DNA of 12,452 nt, from the NCBI GenBank assembly GCA_913054525.1, contig CAJXHR010000007.1, forward strand, positions 1 to 12,452. Direction: 5' to 3'. The position numbers and the translations under genes were made by a program. Source of the stretch: an uncultured bacterium. GTDB lineage: Bacteria > Patescibacteriota > Minisyncoccia > Spechtbacterales > HO2-43-30. Every line of letters starts with the position of its first letter. The first letter of the stretch is position 1. Below are positions 3,012-11,475 of the stretch, piece by piece. The notes beneath the pieces were generated by a model, which saw only the letters and a list, made by a program, of their open reading frames with translations, was not told where the DNA came from and did not search any database.

Positions 3012-4319
3012 TTACTCAAATCCCGGTGGCGGGAATTTTTTGCAAAGTGCTTTTACCTGATTTTTTATTCTTTTCAGATTTTCTTCGGAAGGGTTGTTAA
3101 TCGCCCCATGTATCCATTTTGCGAACTGTCTCATTTCTGTAACGCCCATACCGCGCGTTGTCACGGCCGGGGTGCCAAGGCGTATTCCAGATGCTTTCTG
3201 AGGGGGCAGCGGATCATTGGGAATAGCGTTTTTATTCACCACTATGCCTGCCTGGTGCAACCACTCGGAGGCATCTTCGCCGTTCACAGTAAATGGCCGC
3301 AAGTCCACAAGCATCAAATGGTTATCGGTGCCTCCAGAGATGATATCAAAGCCATATTTTTTGAGGTTTTCGCAAAGCGTGTTTGCATTTTTTATAACCT
3401 TTTTTGCGTAGGAGCGGAATTGCGGAGCGTTCGCTTCCCTTAAGCACACTGCGATTGCCATTGTCTGCTGATTATGCGGGCCGCCCTGGAGGCCGGGGAA
3501 GACCCCGGAGTTTATAAGCTGAAAAATGGTTTTCTCACCATGCTTTATATCTTTTCGCGCGAATATTAGCGCGCCGCGCGGTCCGCGCAGGGTCTTATGG
3601 GTAGTTGTCGTTACAATGTCGCAGTGGGGGAATGGCGAGGGGTGTGTTCCGCCTGCAATGAGTCCTGCGATATGCGCGATATCTGCCATTAGGAGGGCGC
3701 TGTGTTTCTTGGCAATCTTGCCGAATTTCTCAAAATCTACAACACGGGAGTACGCGGACGCGCCGCATACTATAAGTTTTGGTTTGAATTTTTCCGCAAG
3801 CTGCTCAACTTCCGCATAGTTTATATATCCCTTTTCATCAAGGCCGTATTGTTCAAAGTGGAATAATTTTCCCGAGAAGGAAACATGAAAACCATGCGTG
3901 AGGTGGCCGCCGAAATCAAGCCGCATGCCAAGGGCAGTGTCTTCGCCATTGGCATGGCCCTTTGCTTTGAGCAATGCGCCATATACCGCAAGATTCGCCT
4001 CGCTCCCGGATGCGGCTTGGACATTTGAGCCCCATATATTTTCATCAAGTCCGAAAAGTTTCAGGGCTCGTTTCTGTGCGAGTATCTCTACCGGGTCTAT
4101 CGCGGCATCACTGCCCTTATAATATCTTGCGCCCGGGTATCCTTCGGAATATTTATTGGTGGCAACGGAAGAGCCGGCTTCCCGTACAGCGGGGGAGGCG
4201 TAGTTTTCCGAAGCAATAAAATCCGCATACCAAAACTGCCTGTCTTCCTCCAGAAGATTTAGCTCCGCTATTTCCGGGTCTGTTTTTTCCAGATTTGGAT
4301 ATTTTATAGCACGTTTCAT
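3012..4319 (-). CDS. glyA: Serine hydroxymethyltransferase
   Basis: SHMT is a PLP enzyme that interconverts serine plus THF with glycine plus 5,10-methylene-THF, the main entry of one-carbon units. The 435 residues fit the family (about 415-435). Visible motifs: ASENYASPAV (36-45), NKYSEGYPGARYY (55-67), D212 and H215 in MADIAHIAGL, and the PLP lysine K242 in TTTTHKTLRGPRGAL. The usual NVQPHSGSQAN reads NVQAASGSEAN here, followed by a short insertion around residues 120-127, and the QGGPHNQQT segment resembles eukaryotic-type SHMTs. The start is supported by AGGAG (plus-strand 4326-4330) six bases upstream. It is the first gene of a two-gene operon with folD, which uses its product. The probable 5' leader is short and begins with a hairpin (4335-4357). 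Confidence 0.98.
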   Translation of the reverse strand: MKRAIKYPNLEKTDPEIAELNLLEEDRQFWYADFIASENYASPAVREAGSSVATNKYSEGYPGARYYKGSDAAIDPVEILAQKRALKLFGLDENIWGSNVQAASGSEANLAVYGALLKAKGHANGEDTALGMRLDFGGHLTHGFHVSFSGKLFHFEQYGLDEKGYINYAEVEQLAEKFKPKLIVCGASAYSRVVDFEKFGKIAKKHSALLMADIAHIAGLIAGGTHPSPFPHCDIVTTTTHKTLRGPRGALIFARKDIKHGEKTIFQLINSGVFPGLQGGPHNQQTMAIAVCLREANAPQFRSYAKKVIKNANTLCENLKKYGFDIISGGTDNHLMLVDLRPFTVNGEDASEWLHQAGIVVNKNAIPNDPLPPQKASGIRLGTPAVTTRGMGVTEMRQFAKWIHGAINNPSEENLKRIKNQVKALCKKFPPPGFE

Positions 4320-4396: not shown

Positions 4397-4425
4397 TTGA
4401 CAAAATATCAATAATGTGATATAAT
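4397..4425 (+). promoter_or_regulatory. Consensus sigma-70 type promoter with extended -10
   Basis: TTGACA (4397-4402), a 17-base spacer and TATAAT (4420-4425) match the housekeeping consensus at all twelve positions. TG at 4417-4418 adds an extended -10 (TGnTATAAT). Transcription should begin near 4432. It is the best promoter in the window and drives the hairpin-rich unit ending at 4690. Because the predicted start coincides with ATG 4433, the product is either a leaderless mRNA or, more likely in my view, a non-coding RNA. Confidence 0.9.
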
Positions 4426-4432
4426 ACTGCAT

Positions 4433-4567
4433 ATGAATAAAACACGAAAGACACGCGTTTCGCGGAAGAATTCAAAAAAACTTTCGCGAAAACGAACTTC
4501 TTTTCTGCGGGGCTTGTTTATTAAAAGCAGTAATGCTTTTAAGTGGGCCTTCGCGGATAACCGTTAA
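4433..4567 (+). CDS. Possible leaderless 44-residue basic peptide (alternative to the ncRNA reading)
   Basis: ATG 4433 opens a 44-codon frame ending in TAA 4565-4567. The peptide starts MNKTRKTRVSRKNSKKLSRK and is extremely rich in Lys and Arg, with a short hydrophobic patch (SFLRGLFI) and the end FKWAFADNR. It matches no ribosomal protein or family I know. There is no Shine-Dalgarno, and the expected transcription start falls on or one base before the ATG, so translation would have to be leaderless. The same bases form the H1 and H2 hairpins, which accounts for much of the base pattern without coding. Basic composition is also expected from a purine-rich RNA. I favour the RNA, but a dual-function RNA or leader peptide cannot be excluded. 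Confidence 0.25.
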   Translation: MNKTRKTRVSRKNSKKLSRKRTSFLRGLFIKSSNAFKWAFADNR

Positions 4568-4572
4568 TTGCG

Positions 4573-4646
4573 CTGGGCAATTCTGCCCAGACATCTGGAG
4601 GAGGGTCAGAAAAATACTTGGGACCTTGATCCTCCAGATGTCTGGG
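4573..4646 (+). repeat. Mutually exclusive hairpins before the terminator
   Basis: The segment CCCAG (4586-4590) can pair upstream, in CTGGGCA/ATTC/TGCCCAG (4573-4590), or downstream, in a perfect 17-base-pair stem between CCCAGACATCTGGAGGA (4586-4602) and its inverse (4630-4646). In the latter, GGTC (4604-4607) and GACC (4622-4625) extend pairing into the loop. The small hairpin would form first during transcription and be displaced by the longer one. The stem also buries an SD-like GGAGGAGG with no evident reading frame behind it. Confidence 0.7.
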
Positions 4647-4650
4647 TATT

Positions 4651-4689
4651 AAAATAATACAGCCCCCTATAGGGGGCTGTATTATTTTT
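4651..4689. terminator. Shared bidirectional terminator (38-bp perfect palindrome)
   Basis: A 17-base arm at 4651-4667 (ending CAGCCCCC) pairs perfectly with 4672-4688 around TATA. The right flank is T-rich for plus-strand transcripts and, by symmetry, the left flank is T-rich for minus-strand transcripts. It would end both the candidate ncRNA and the convergent secreted-protein gene, whose extended -1 frame stops at 4704, 16 bases away. Confidence 0.9.
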
Positions 4690-4703
4690 GTTATAAATCC
4701 GGA

Positions 4704-4847
4704 TCAATTCTGTATTTTAAAGGGGTCATATGGCACGCCTTGGGTCGCGGATGTCGGAGGAAGTGATACGGGCGGCGCTGGGACAGGTTCTGCTTCTCGC
4801 AGCTTTTTTATCTCGGGATTTTCTTCAATTCTTTTTCGGAGCTTGTT
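4704..4847 (-). other. -1 frame C-terminal extension of the secreted repeat protein
   Basis: The annotated frame of the upstream gene stops at 4808, but the -1 frame is open and protein-like. After the A7 run (plus-strand T7, 4846-4852) it reads NKLRKRIEENPEIKKL, then REAEPVPAPPVSLPP, then TSATQGVPYDPFKIQN, stopping at TGA 4706-4704. The first part continues the charged helix of the main frame, whereas the in-frame alternative ends abruptly in KKIPR. In the -1 frame a stop at 4871-4869 bounds the upstream side, so any shift occurs between 4868 and 4811. The tail ends 16 bases from the terminator, where a gene end is expected. Causes could be programmed -1 slippage, transcriptional slippage on A7, a natural indel, or an assembly error. 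Confidence 0.7.
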
Positions 4848-6496
4848 TTTTTCATTTTCCTTACCTGCTCAGCACTATCTTTTCTGCTTTGAATCCGGTC
4901 TGCCTGCTCTCTCCTCATGTCTTGGAAGAAATTGACTTGCGGCCCAAACTCACCTTCAAATTCATCAAGTATAGACATATGCTCGGGCTCGGACCCGGCC
5001 ATCATGCGCATTTTATCCCCAAGCCGTCCGAGTTGCCGGGCCTCATTAACCTCCTCCTGCATCTCGCTCATCGCTTTTTTCTTCATCTCCTGCCAGAGAT
5101 ATTTTTTGTCCGGAGGGATTATTCCTTCCATTTCGCTTAGAGTTTGCAACATCTGGACGTCACGGAATTTTTCCATTTCTCCAAAAAAGTTATCAAGGTC
5201 TCCGGTCGACTCTGCCTGCTCAAATCGCTCGCGCATTTTTTGCTCCATCTTGCGCTTGATGTCCAAGACAGCTGTTATGGTATTGGGATCAAGATTGGTC
5301 TCGAGCTCCCTGATGATGCGCGCATCTTCCATTTTTCCGTCCTCAAGGTGCGCGATAAATACTTTTTTACGGGTCTCATCTTTTATTTGTTTCATGCGAT
5401 GCTCCACCCGTCTGCGAGATTTTTCGCGGGCTCTTTCCATTTCTTCGAATATCCCTTTTTCCATGCTAGTAAATGCCCCAAGGGAATCGAATGCCTCAAG
5501 GTGGCGGACTTCGTTGCCTCCTATTTTTTCTATATATTTGCTGAATACTTTTCGTTCCTGTTCGTCTATTCTACTAAATTCCTCCTCAAAAGCTTTCGAG
5601 GATTGTTTGATGGCGTTTTGGATAGCGCCTCTCGCCCGCTCCGGTACAAAATCCTTCATCTCCTCCAGCATCTCTATGTGCTTGAAGTGGCGGAACGAAC
5701 AACTTCCTTTTTGTTCCCTAAGGGCCTCGCTAAATTTTTGCTGGAGTACCTCCGGCTCAACAATGGCGGCCATGCCCCGGGAAAAATGTCTCATTGCCGC
5801 GATTTTTGCTTCCTCAATTTCAGGGGCGATATTTTCGCGTTTTTTCATAATTGCACCCAAAATTTTGTGATGCTTAATCTGGTTACCGGCAGTTCTTTTG
5901 ACAATCTCTTCCACCCTTGCTTTATCGGGAACAGTTTTTAATTTGTTGAGCTCGGTTTTTGTGCGCTCAACTTCTCTTGCGTATTTTTCTACTGCTCTTT
6001 TTACTATTCCATCGTCAGCCCCCTTTTCCTCAAGGGTTTTTGCTATCATGAGATCTTCACTGGCGAATCTTTCTTTAAGCTCCACCCGTTGTATGGGGTC
6101 GCGCGTGGTAACTGTCTGGACTGTCCTTGTGAGCCCCCGAAGGGCTCTTCTGAACGGGTTGGTGAAGTTTCCTACCGATTGTTCCGCCACTCCAAGATCT
6201 GCGGCTGTAATATTTTCATCTAGGGCCACGAGTTGTTCTGCCCGGGAATCTGCGATGGCAGCTTCCATTTGGGCCGGTACTCTGATGTCTCCTATGGGCG
6301 TAGGTATGCCTCCGTCTTCATCTTCGTCCCCGCCTTCTTCTCCCGGTTCTTCGTCGGTTACCCTATCTCCGCCGGGTGATGGTCGGTCTTCCTCTACTTC
6401 CTGCGCGTTTACGGGTAAAATCGCCATGGCAAAGAGCAGGACGAAAGATAAGGCAAAAATGCTAATTACAAAACGCAAACTATGCGTTGCGGGCAT
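4808..6496 (-). CDS. Secreted, helical repeat protein with a DUF5667-like N-terminal region
   Basis: A 562-residue protein of unknown function. Residues 1-31 are a signal peptide (Arg8, hydrophobic core 9-27, cleavage after V-N-A31), so it is exported. An acidic Gly/Glu/Asp linker (32-63) follows. Residues about 105-190 (NPFRRALRGL, then DPIQRVELKERFASEDLMIA) resemble the DUF5667 pattern common in Patescibacteria. From about 206 to 515 I see six degenerate helical repeats of 55-62 residues, starting near 206, 268, 330, 392, 447 and 505, each opening with an xxHLExLxxh-like segment. There is a single cysteine (C266) and no catalytic motif. It begins 15 bases after thrS without a Shine-Dalgarno, so it probably depends on read-through from dnaE-thrS. 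The reading frame appears to shift near its end (see 4704-4847); the full product would be about 597 residues. A scaffold or cell-surface role is a guess. Confidence 0.85.
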   Translation of the reverse strand: MPATHSLRFVISIFALSFVLLFAMAILPVNAQEVEEDRPSPGGDRVTDEEPGEEGGDEDEDGGIPTPIGDIRVPAQMEAAIADSRAEQLVALDENITAADLGVAEQSVGNFTNPFRRALRGLTRTVQTVTTRDPIQRVELKERFASEDLMIAKTLEEKGADDGIVKRAVEKYAREVERTKTELNKLKTVPDKARVEEIVKRTAGNQIKHHKILGAIMKKRENIAPEIEEAKIAAMRHFSRGMAAIVEPEVLQQKFSEALREQKGSCSFRHFKHIEMLEEMKDFVPERARGAIQNAIKQSSKAFEEEFSRIDEQERKVFSKYIEKIGGNEVRHLEAFDSLGAFTSMEKGIFEEMERAREKSRRRVEHRMKQIKDETRKKVFIAHLEDGKMEDARIIRELETNLDPNTITAVLDIKRKMEQKMRERFEQAESTGDLDNFFGEMEKFRDVQMLQTLSEMEGIIPPDKKYLWQEMKKKAMSEMQEEVNEARQLGRLGDKMRMMAGSEPEHMSILDEFEGEFGPQVNFFQDMRREQADRIQSRKDSAEQVRKMKKTSSEKELKKIPR

Positions 6497-11200: not shown

Positions 11201-11419
11201 CGCGGCTACGTACGCCTCCATTCCAAAAATCGGTTTAATGCCACGTTTTTTTGCTTCTTTATAAAATTCTATATTGCCGTAAAGTACACCATGGTCTGTA
11301 ATCGCAACAGAGTCCATGCCAAGTTCCTTTGTGTAGTCCAAAAGATCGGGGATTTTTGAGAGGCCATCCAAGAGAGAGTAGTGGCTGTGCACATGCAGAT
11401 GAGTAAATTTTGGATTCAT
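8258..11419 (-). CDS. dnaE: DNA polymerase III alpha subunit
   Basis: DnaE is the replicative polymerase. I choose ATG 11419 (1053 residues, starting MNPKFTHLHVHSHYSLLDG) over in-frame TTG 11440, which would place the start before the -10 element. In this numbering, the N-terminal PHP domain has an intact HLHVHSH motif, DHGVLYG and QDSHYL, so metal-binding residues look retained, unlike E. coli. The catalytic aspartates are D402 and D404 (PDIDIDF) and D555 (MDFLG), at the E. coli positions. GPGRGSAAGS, RHASTHACGV, YRPGPM and FNKAHS are also family motifs. A clamp-binding QISLF begins at residue 907, followed by an OB fold; the protein ends there, about 100 residues short of E. coli DnaE, so the C-terminal tau-binding domain seems absent. 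First gene of dnaE-thrS-secreted protein. No Shine-Dalgarno; probably leaderless. Confidence 0.98.
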   Translation of the reverse strand: MNPKFTHLHVHSHYSLLDGLSKIPDLLDYTKELGMDSVAITDHGVLYGNIEFYKEAKKRGIKPIFGMEAYVAARSMHDKQPGIDDKRYHLILLAKNNTGYKNLIQLSSKSHLEGFYYKPRVDKKLLREHSEGLIALSGCLSGEISRAILSGNKSEAESLIAEYTDIFGKENFYLELQHHPNIPEQIKLNSELRKLSKKLSLAVVATQDSHYLRPQDAEAQDILLAIQTGDKITDEKRGLTMKDEDFSLKSSQEMAEAFNDIPSALENTQKIADMCNTDIELGKYQLPYFEVPKEKTQDEYLRELCEKGLAVRYGSKYNESKVIERLDYELDVIKQMGFASYFLIVQDFVNWAKGRGIVVGPGRGSAAGSIASYLLNITDIDPLKYDLIFERFLQIDRNELPDIDIDFADIRRDEVLEYVSEKYGRENVAQIITFGTMAARAAVRDVGRALNYPYEFCDKVAKTIPMMMNFEQALRESQEFAFLYQGDRDARRLIDTARKLEGVARHASTHACGVVITKEPLTNSVPLQLSSQSSTAQISQYEMHAIEDLGLLKMDFLGLKNLTIIENARKQIKRAYGKEIKMDEIPLDDEKTLELFRQANTVGIFQLESAGMRRYLKELQPTAFEDIIAMIALYRPGPMELIPDFIERKHGRTQISYLHPDLEPILKSTYGIAVYQEQVLQIARELAGFTYSEADVLRKAIGKKIKELLDEQREKFVQGMMDRGIQKATAEQLFHFVEPFARYGFNKAHSTCYATVGFQTAYLKAHYPSEFMAAILNAEQKNIDRISSLMDECKTMGIKVLAPDINESDQHFTVSPAGIRFGLAAVKNVGEHIVGEIIKERDKHGQFQSIENILERVRDKDLNKKSLESLIKCGAFDNLAERSKLLANIDTLLKYSKNQKTLQNSSQISLFADQPTFASSLRLEETEPAPKKQSLAWEKELLGFYVSSHPLEEHKAELASFTKVKNLKSKDAGKMISIGGIISGIQKIVTKAGQPMLFIGIEDLTAKIEGLVFPSLLAKNPDIFRDGATIRVKGRLSDKDGELKILCEEVKEL

Positions 11420-11426
11420 TGTTTCG

Positions 11427-11435
11427 ATTATATCA
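11427..11435 (-). promoter_or_regulatory. Extended -10 of the dnaE promoter
   Basis: On the minus strand TGATATAAT carries a perfect TATAAT (plus-strand 11427-11432) with an extended TG. The -35 position has only TTTGTA (11450-11455, 17-base spacer). The hexamer ends seven bases before ATG 11419, so the transcript should begin at or next to the start codon. The same TATAAT-N7-ATG spacing occurs at 4420-4435. Confidence 0.7.
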
Positions 11436-11447
11436 CCCAATAGCTTA

Positions 11448-11475
11448 TTTACAAATTCTTAGCTGGTGATACTAT
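11448..11475 (+). promoter_or_regulatory. Promoter of the small membrane protein gene
   Basis: TTTACA (11448-11453), a 16-base spacer and TACTAT (11470-11475) preceded by TG at 11467-11468. Its -35 overlaps the dnaE -35 position on the other strand, so the two promoters are back to back. Transcription would begin near 11482, leaving a leader of about 40 bases with a Shine-Dalgarno. Several other A/T-rich hexamers are nearby, so the exact -10 is uncertain. Confidence 0.5.

Follow-up and report, generated by a model that had tools for sequence, protein, structure and literature searches.

A strongly folding region beside glyA in a Spechtbacterales genome is most likely an unannotated leaderless small-protein gene

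The window analysed here, a whole stretch of 12,452 nt from an uncultured bacterium of the Spechtbacterales, carries at 4397-4690 what is most likely an unannotated leaderless small-protein gene, a real feature of an ordinary kind. As predicted from sequence, this would be a monocistronic leaderless mRNA for a strongly basic protein of 44 residues (ORF44), with a structured 3' end, and the evidence, which is suggestive, favours such an mRNA over an orphan structured RNA. The probability of the coding reading is put at about 0.62 and not higher because of the poor codon usage of ORF44, the strong folding, the fact that its counterpart ORF49 in a related genome (G002) is not leaderless, and the lack of a frame of this type in another genome of the family (G001). 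In the preliminary description, the region was read as an independently expressed non-coding RNA. The signals of independent expression, promoter and terminator, stand, but the leaderless ATG and the alignment with ORF49 speak against its being non-coding.

Genomic context, promoter and start codon

The gene order in the window is a NUDIX gene, gatB, folD (-), glyA (-), the 4397-4690 region, a gene with a signal-like N-terminus (-), a thrS-like gene (-) and dnaE (-), the last of these named from its sequence. Coordinates of the relevant features are collected in Table 1. The DUF5667 match of the convergent gene (E 9.5e-4, 20 bits) is below the cut-off of 27 bits. No tRNA or tmRNA was found in the window.

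Table 1. Features of the 4397-4690 region and its flanking genes.
Feature	Position	Strand	Evidence
glyA (serine hydroxymethyltransferase), divergent neighbour	3012..4319	-	PF00464, E 3.7e-145
Sigma-70-type promoter, TTGACA-N17-TATAAT with extended -10	4397..4425	+	sequence scan
ORF44, 44-codon frame	4433..4567	+	predicted leaderless; ATG 7 nt past the -10 box
11-pair hairpin in frame (arms 4458-4468/4481-4491)	4458..4491	+	folding z -3.0 for 4445-4505
Outer stem around nine-pair GUAA hairpin in frame	4504..4557	+	folding z -5.0 for 4504-4558
Long near-perfect hairpin, 3' untranslated part	4584..4648	+	folding z -7.5 for 4578-4650
Perfect 38-bp palindrome	4651..4688	.	100% match to own reverse complement over 38 nt; folding z -6.3 for 4650-4690
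Convergent gene, signal-like N-terminus (by eye)	4808..6496	-	weak DUF5667

The perfect extended -10 promoter claimed in the preliminary description is confirmed: TTGACA (4397-4402), a 17-nt spacer, TG (4417-4418) and TATAAT (4420-4425) give a 12/12 match. Promoter-like sites in the window number 21, which is the shuffle level (mean 19.2), and this is the sole 12/12 site among them; under a first-order Markov model, 0.005 perfect sites would be expected in the window. The ATG at 4433 follows TATAAT at a distance of 7 nt, about where a transcript would be expected to start, and a leaderless start is predicted. This spacing falls in the 5-8 nt leaderless range. By eye, no Shine-Dalgarno sequence is seen in AATGTGATATAATACTGCATATG, which precedes the ORF44 start, while one (AAAAGGAG) is present ahead of the glyA of the window. 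The frame ends with a UAA stop at 4565-4567.

RNA folding

The strong folding that the preliminary description emphasised is real: 4432-4690 has a minimum free energy of -118 kcal/mol, while its shuffles average -62.6 (z -12.4). However, the two hairpins at the 3' end account for most of this extreme value, and one of them is the terminator, which the convergent gene faces as well. When 704 segments of 140 nt from both strands were each compared with 40 shuffles, the seven lowest z values all belonged to segments starting at 4516-4621. Both strands are represented among them, since a palindrome folds on either strand. The plus-strand segment starting at 4446 has the eighth-lowest value. The part containing the frame (4431-4570) has a z of -4.6, and the value for 4445-4505 is equalled by 3 of 200 shuffles. 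As for the individual stems previously described, the 11-pair hairpin and the stems with the GUAA loop (nine-pair arms at 4521-4529/4534-4542) are present, but the third hairpin is longer than the 17 pairs attributed to it. The 38-bp palindromic terminator is found as claimed. It is probably a bidirectional terminator common to the ORF44 transcript and the convergent minus-strand gene, which points at it from the opposite side and would thus allow it to terminate both ways.

These folding values, for the whole region and for the frame part alike, are what would be expected of an orphan structured RNA of about 260 nt, trans-acting or protein-binding and specific to the genus or species, in which ORF44 and its likeness to ORF49 arise by chance. 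Such an RNA is a possible but unlikely explanation. It gains from a comparison with synonymous versions of ORF44 drawn from the codon usage of the window, 999 of 1000 of which fold less well than the actual RNA (for ORF49, with the window's codon usage applied, 959 of 1000). Against it stands the position of the ATG at exactly the leaderless spacing. Since the fold of ORF44 exceeds the synonymous expectation, a dual-function transcript may also be considered, in which selection would have acted on the RNA structure of the coding part of a leaderless mRNA. This, again judged from sequence, seems rather improbable. If true, one short RNA would be both message and structured RNA; a literature search found no paper on such dual-function RNAs in this radiation.

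The corresponding slot in another genus of the family

The genomes compared include three in the family and seven in the order. G002 belongs to a second genus of this family. Around the slot it shares the gene order of the window (glyA and the secreted-type gene were recognised by searches, thrS, dnaE, folD and gatB by eye), except that additional minus-strand frames of 84, 94 and 373 aa separate the slot from the secreted-type gene. The slot has a perfect divergent promoter (TTGACA-17-TGC-TATAAT) and, on the same strand, a basic frame of 49 aa, ORF49 (MKKRDIAIKVRVKTAKTAKVSGKKVKRASILSRLFSKANYVLRYVFVED), which is also predicted as a protein by JGI (P0001). ORF49 is not leaderless, its ATG lying 83 nt from the -10 box, with no clear Shine-Dalgarno sequence.

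Aligned with ORF44 (MNKTRKTRVSRKNSKKLSRKRTSFLRGLFIKSSNAFKWAFADNR), ORF49 has 15 identical residues in 43 aligned codons, and a different codon is used at 7 of these 15. Protein-type change in the 44-codon frame, named in the preliminary description as a sign against a structured RNA, is thus seen in ORF49. The local alignment, between residues 3-43 of 44 in ORF44 and 13-49 of 49 in ORF49, scores 49, reached by 2 of 5000 residue shuffles. The two are the best of 36 frame pairs between both regions, a result reached by 3 of 2000 dinucleotide shuffles (0 of 400 in a smaller run). Among 742 other frames compared with ORF44 (complete from ATG to stop, 40-55 aa, in the loci examined), ORF49 has the highest local score, 49, with 43 for the runner-up, and its global score is tied for first with that of an unrelated frame. 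The C-terminal part alone is matched by 0 of 5000 shuffles, which is given no weight because the stretch was picked after seeing the alignment. The alignment of ORF49 with ORF44 argues against an orphan RNA.

The similarity is close to what some other stretches reach. Natural controls from loci around the glyA genes of relatives score up to 48 against 49, namely in L023, where the control is a pair of frames with stops from the wrong side of glyA, and in L040, where it is, by position, a 31-residue stretch without Met; in the control set that includes L023, the minus-strand rows are from the downstream side of glyA and are still usable as controls, and the set that includes L040 covers the upstream side in 30 loci. 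In a scan of 8710 open stretches, one of 35 residues in G002 (L045) scores 51, above ORF49. At the DNA level, the best alignment lies wholly within the frames and is modest, being equalled by 38 to 51 of 1000 shuffles, and the 3' hairpin region has no similarity to G002 (998 of 1000 shuffles as good). Differences by codon position number 18, 15 and 26 in the 43 codons, with no clear skew.

Neither the 11-pair hairpin nor the stems at 4504-4557 are kept in G002 in the codon alignment. Of the 39 predicted pairs of ORF44, 17 are able to pair in G002, against 14-19 in slid controls, a comparison of two sequences on an alignment built for protein. That the stems are not kept there also counts against an orphan RNA.

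The glyA-divergent slot in other relatives

Within 900 nt, a promoter of the form TTGACN-16/18-TANNNT reading away from glyA is found in five of the six other members of the order and in 0 of 24 other loci. The loci with a strong divergent promoter upstream of glyA are L013, L014, L015, L016 and L018; that of G003 is about 300 nt from glyA. What lies behind the promoter differs. G001, which is in the same family and 82% complete, has no ORF44-type frame and no match to the ORF44+ORF49 profile, and its slot holds a different gene of 81 aa behind the promoter. The slots of G004 and G006 contain short Cys-containing frames with Shine-Dalgarno-like sites (by eye). On the whole, a strong divergent promoter is retained in the slot, and the genes behind it vary. 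Some of the small genes behind glyA-divergent promoters carry Cys pairs, and a 128-aa frame of FPTxxP-like repeats occurs near the glyA-divergent gene of G001 (L013:258-644).

The presence of different small genes behind similar promoters would fit the view of ORF44 as a remnant: it would once have headed a divergent operon and would now be losing its coding function, with promoter and terminator intact. ORF49 heads a run of minus-strand frames (next an 84-aa gene, then others) that is missing in the window, and the codon choice of ORF44 looks unselected, both also as a remnant would have it. However, ORF44 is intact from start to stop and its promoter has been kept perfect, and a remnant is improbable.

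Several further observations were made around glyA. A contig in a MAG titled Neomarinimicrobiota (L042, JACZSB010000019.1) has a glyA 76% identical to that of the window over residues 1-286, with a divergent TTGACT-17-TATAAT promoter beside it; this contig is possibly misbinned. The glyA relative on a Staskawiczbacteria contig is 54% identical over residues 9-431. G005 has a near-palindromic MITE-like repeat of about 100 bp with long terminal inverted repeats, of which there are three copies in the two loci read (L009, about 1594-1700; L017, about 1311-1415 and 2799-2905). The idea that ORF44 corresponds to the start of a helix-turn-helix regulator placed divergently to glyA in G032 was rejected, as the region compared there is downstream of glyA.

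Searches for RNA and protein relatives

No Rfam family was found in the whole window at the gathering cut-off, nor was there any match in four loci around the glyA genes of relatives. With E up to 10, there are 31 matches in the region, all well below their cut-offs, the best being Phe_leader with 31 bits against a cut-off of 55; that no known RNA family is recognisable, as noted before, therefore holds. The weak Phe_leader score is due to the layout of short frame, hairpin and terminator. This layout would suit a leader or attenuator, but the next plus-strand frames are antisense within the convergent gene, and with no likely plus-strand gene downstream attenuation is unlikely, while an antisense regulator of the convergent gene would overlap its target only near the terminator, making either role highly improbable.

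In a DNA search of 54 relatives, similarity was confined to query 2-60 of 311, which takes in the promoter and the first few codons. Weak matches were obtained in 49 phage records, and of the 20 listed (E 0.3), 19 are over the promoter and one is over query 42-90. A covariance model of the frame part, run against 237 genomes of the class, found no convincing structural homologue, which goes against an orphan RNA; there were two weak outside matches, with per-genome E of 0.0086 and 0.08, about chance level.

For the peptide, no family was found at threshold in Pfam, NCBIfam or PHROG, and ORF44 alone had no match among 5.8 billion proteins, both of which would equally be expected if the region were an orphan RNA. 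A PDB search gave no match. Searched against the same proteins, the ORF44+ORF49 pair found just ORF49 itself. A profile of the two, run on 383 genomes of the class, gave seven weak matches besides both; none of the six that were read is an intact small start-to-stop frame, and the seventh, by the table, has internal stops. The 85 pattern matches in viral contigs include no relative. ORF49 of G002 is the only candidate homologue of ORF44.

Composition and codon usage

The ORF44 peptide has 15 K/R in 44 residues and a computed pI of about 12, which is the ceiling of the calculator. Its N-terminal half is K/R-rich and its C-terminal half is half-hydrophobic (TSFLRGLFIKSSNAFKWAF). At a guess from this composition, it might bind nucleic acid, the ribosome or a membrane.

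The synonymous codon choice of ORF44 is below that of all 77 same-length pieces of the window's genes, and of 385 wrong-frame pieces, 259 equal or exceed it. The other two frames over the same stretch look more gene-like than ORF44. ORF49 is worse than 63 of 64 pieces of its own genome's genes. The ribosomal protein bL34, taken as a control, has normal codon choice in both genomes, where it scores no lower than 15 of 77 and 56 of 72 gene pieces, respectively. Such non-coding-like codon choice is in line with an orphan RNA, and together with the strong fold of the coding part it leaves room for a role of the RNA itself.

Leaderless pattern in the genome and its relatives

The dnaE of the window (TGATATAATCGAAACAATG) likewise has 7 nt from an extended TATAAT to the ATG (11417-11454, minus strand, ATG at 11419). 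It appears to be leaderless, and the longer TTG start given by the ORF finder (11440) is probably wrong. In the genome as a whole, there are 112 instances of TATAATN3-12ATG and 58 of its reversed control, and the commonest spacings among 100 sites listed are 7 (16 sites), 6 and 12 (14 each), a weak peak. Across 55 genomes (54 relatives together with this one), the counts are 666 for TGNTATAATN5-8ATG and 105 for its reversed form, an excess of about six-fold, and 221 and 91, respectively, for TGNTATAATN15-18ATG. Frames of at least 60 codons are opened by 17 of the 30 leaderless-pattern ATGs assessed (those with loci, both strands); for the remaining 1178 ATGs of these loci, the share is 21%. 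Among the 17 is the start of a frame in L104, presumably pyrG-like.

By this indirect measure, leaderless genes exist in this class, and ORF44 shares their anatomy. Judging by the excess of fused -10 boxes and ATGs, leaderless expression looks common in the class and its small genomes, and dnaE and the pyrG-like gene would be examples of it. A literature search found no paper on leaderless genes in Parcubacteria.

Predicted expression and comparison with known systems

For the leaderless small-protein mRNA, the consensus promoter would start transcription at about 4431-4433, placing the 5' end at or within two nt of the AUG, from which ribosomes would initiate without a Shine-Dalgarno sequence and translate to the UAA. 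The hairpin that follows would probably shield the 3' end of the transcript, which should end at the palindromic terminator, where from its position the convergent gene would end too, on the other strand. Genes of this kind can escape gene callers tuned to ribosome-binding sites and typical codon usage, and leaderless small genes that are missed may be taken for new RNAs.

With intergenic small RNAs, the region shares its own promoter, a length of about 260 nt, strong stems, an intrinsic terminator and the lack of a neighbour in the same transcript. Unlike them, it has no Rfam match and no convincing structural homologue, and its frame, predicted to be leaderless, has a protein-like counterpart at the equivalent place in a relative. 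Like bL34 (PF00468), ORF44 is short (44 aa) and K/R-rich, but it has no family match at threshold, and the genome has its own bL34 elsewhere, with normal codon usage, unlike ORF44. Leaderless genes occur in many bacteria, mostly Actinobacteria and Deinococcus-Thermus (PMC3160421), and those with a -10 box by the start codon are described in Deinococcus-Thermus (PMC12340547); in PMC12641178, leaderless translation comes up in connection with YchF, and not with leaderless genes in Patescibacteria. ORF44 differs from these known genes in that it also has a perfect -35, in that its genome is probably one of Patescibacteria and in that its start site is a predicted one, and it shares with them the -10 box about 10 bp ahead of the start codon, the absence of a Shine-Dalgarno sequence and a predicted 5'-terminal AUG.
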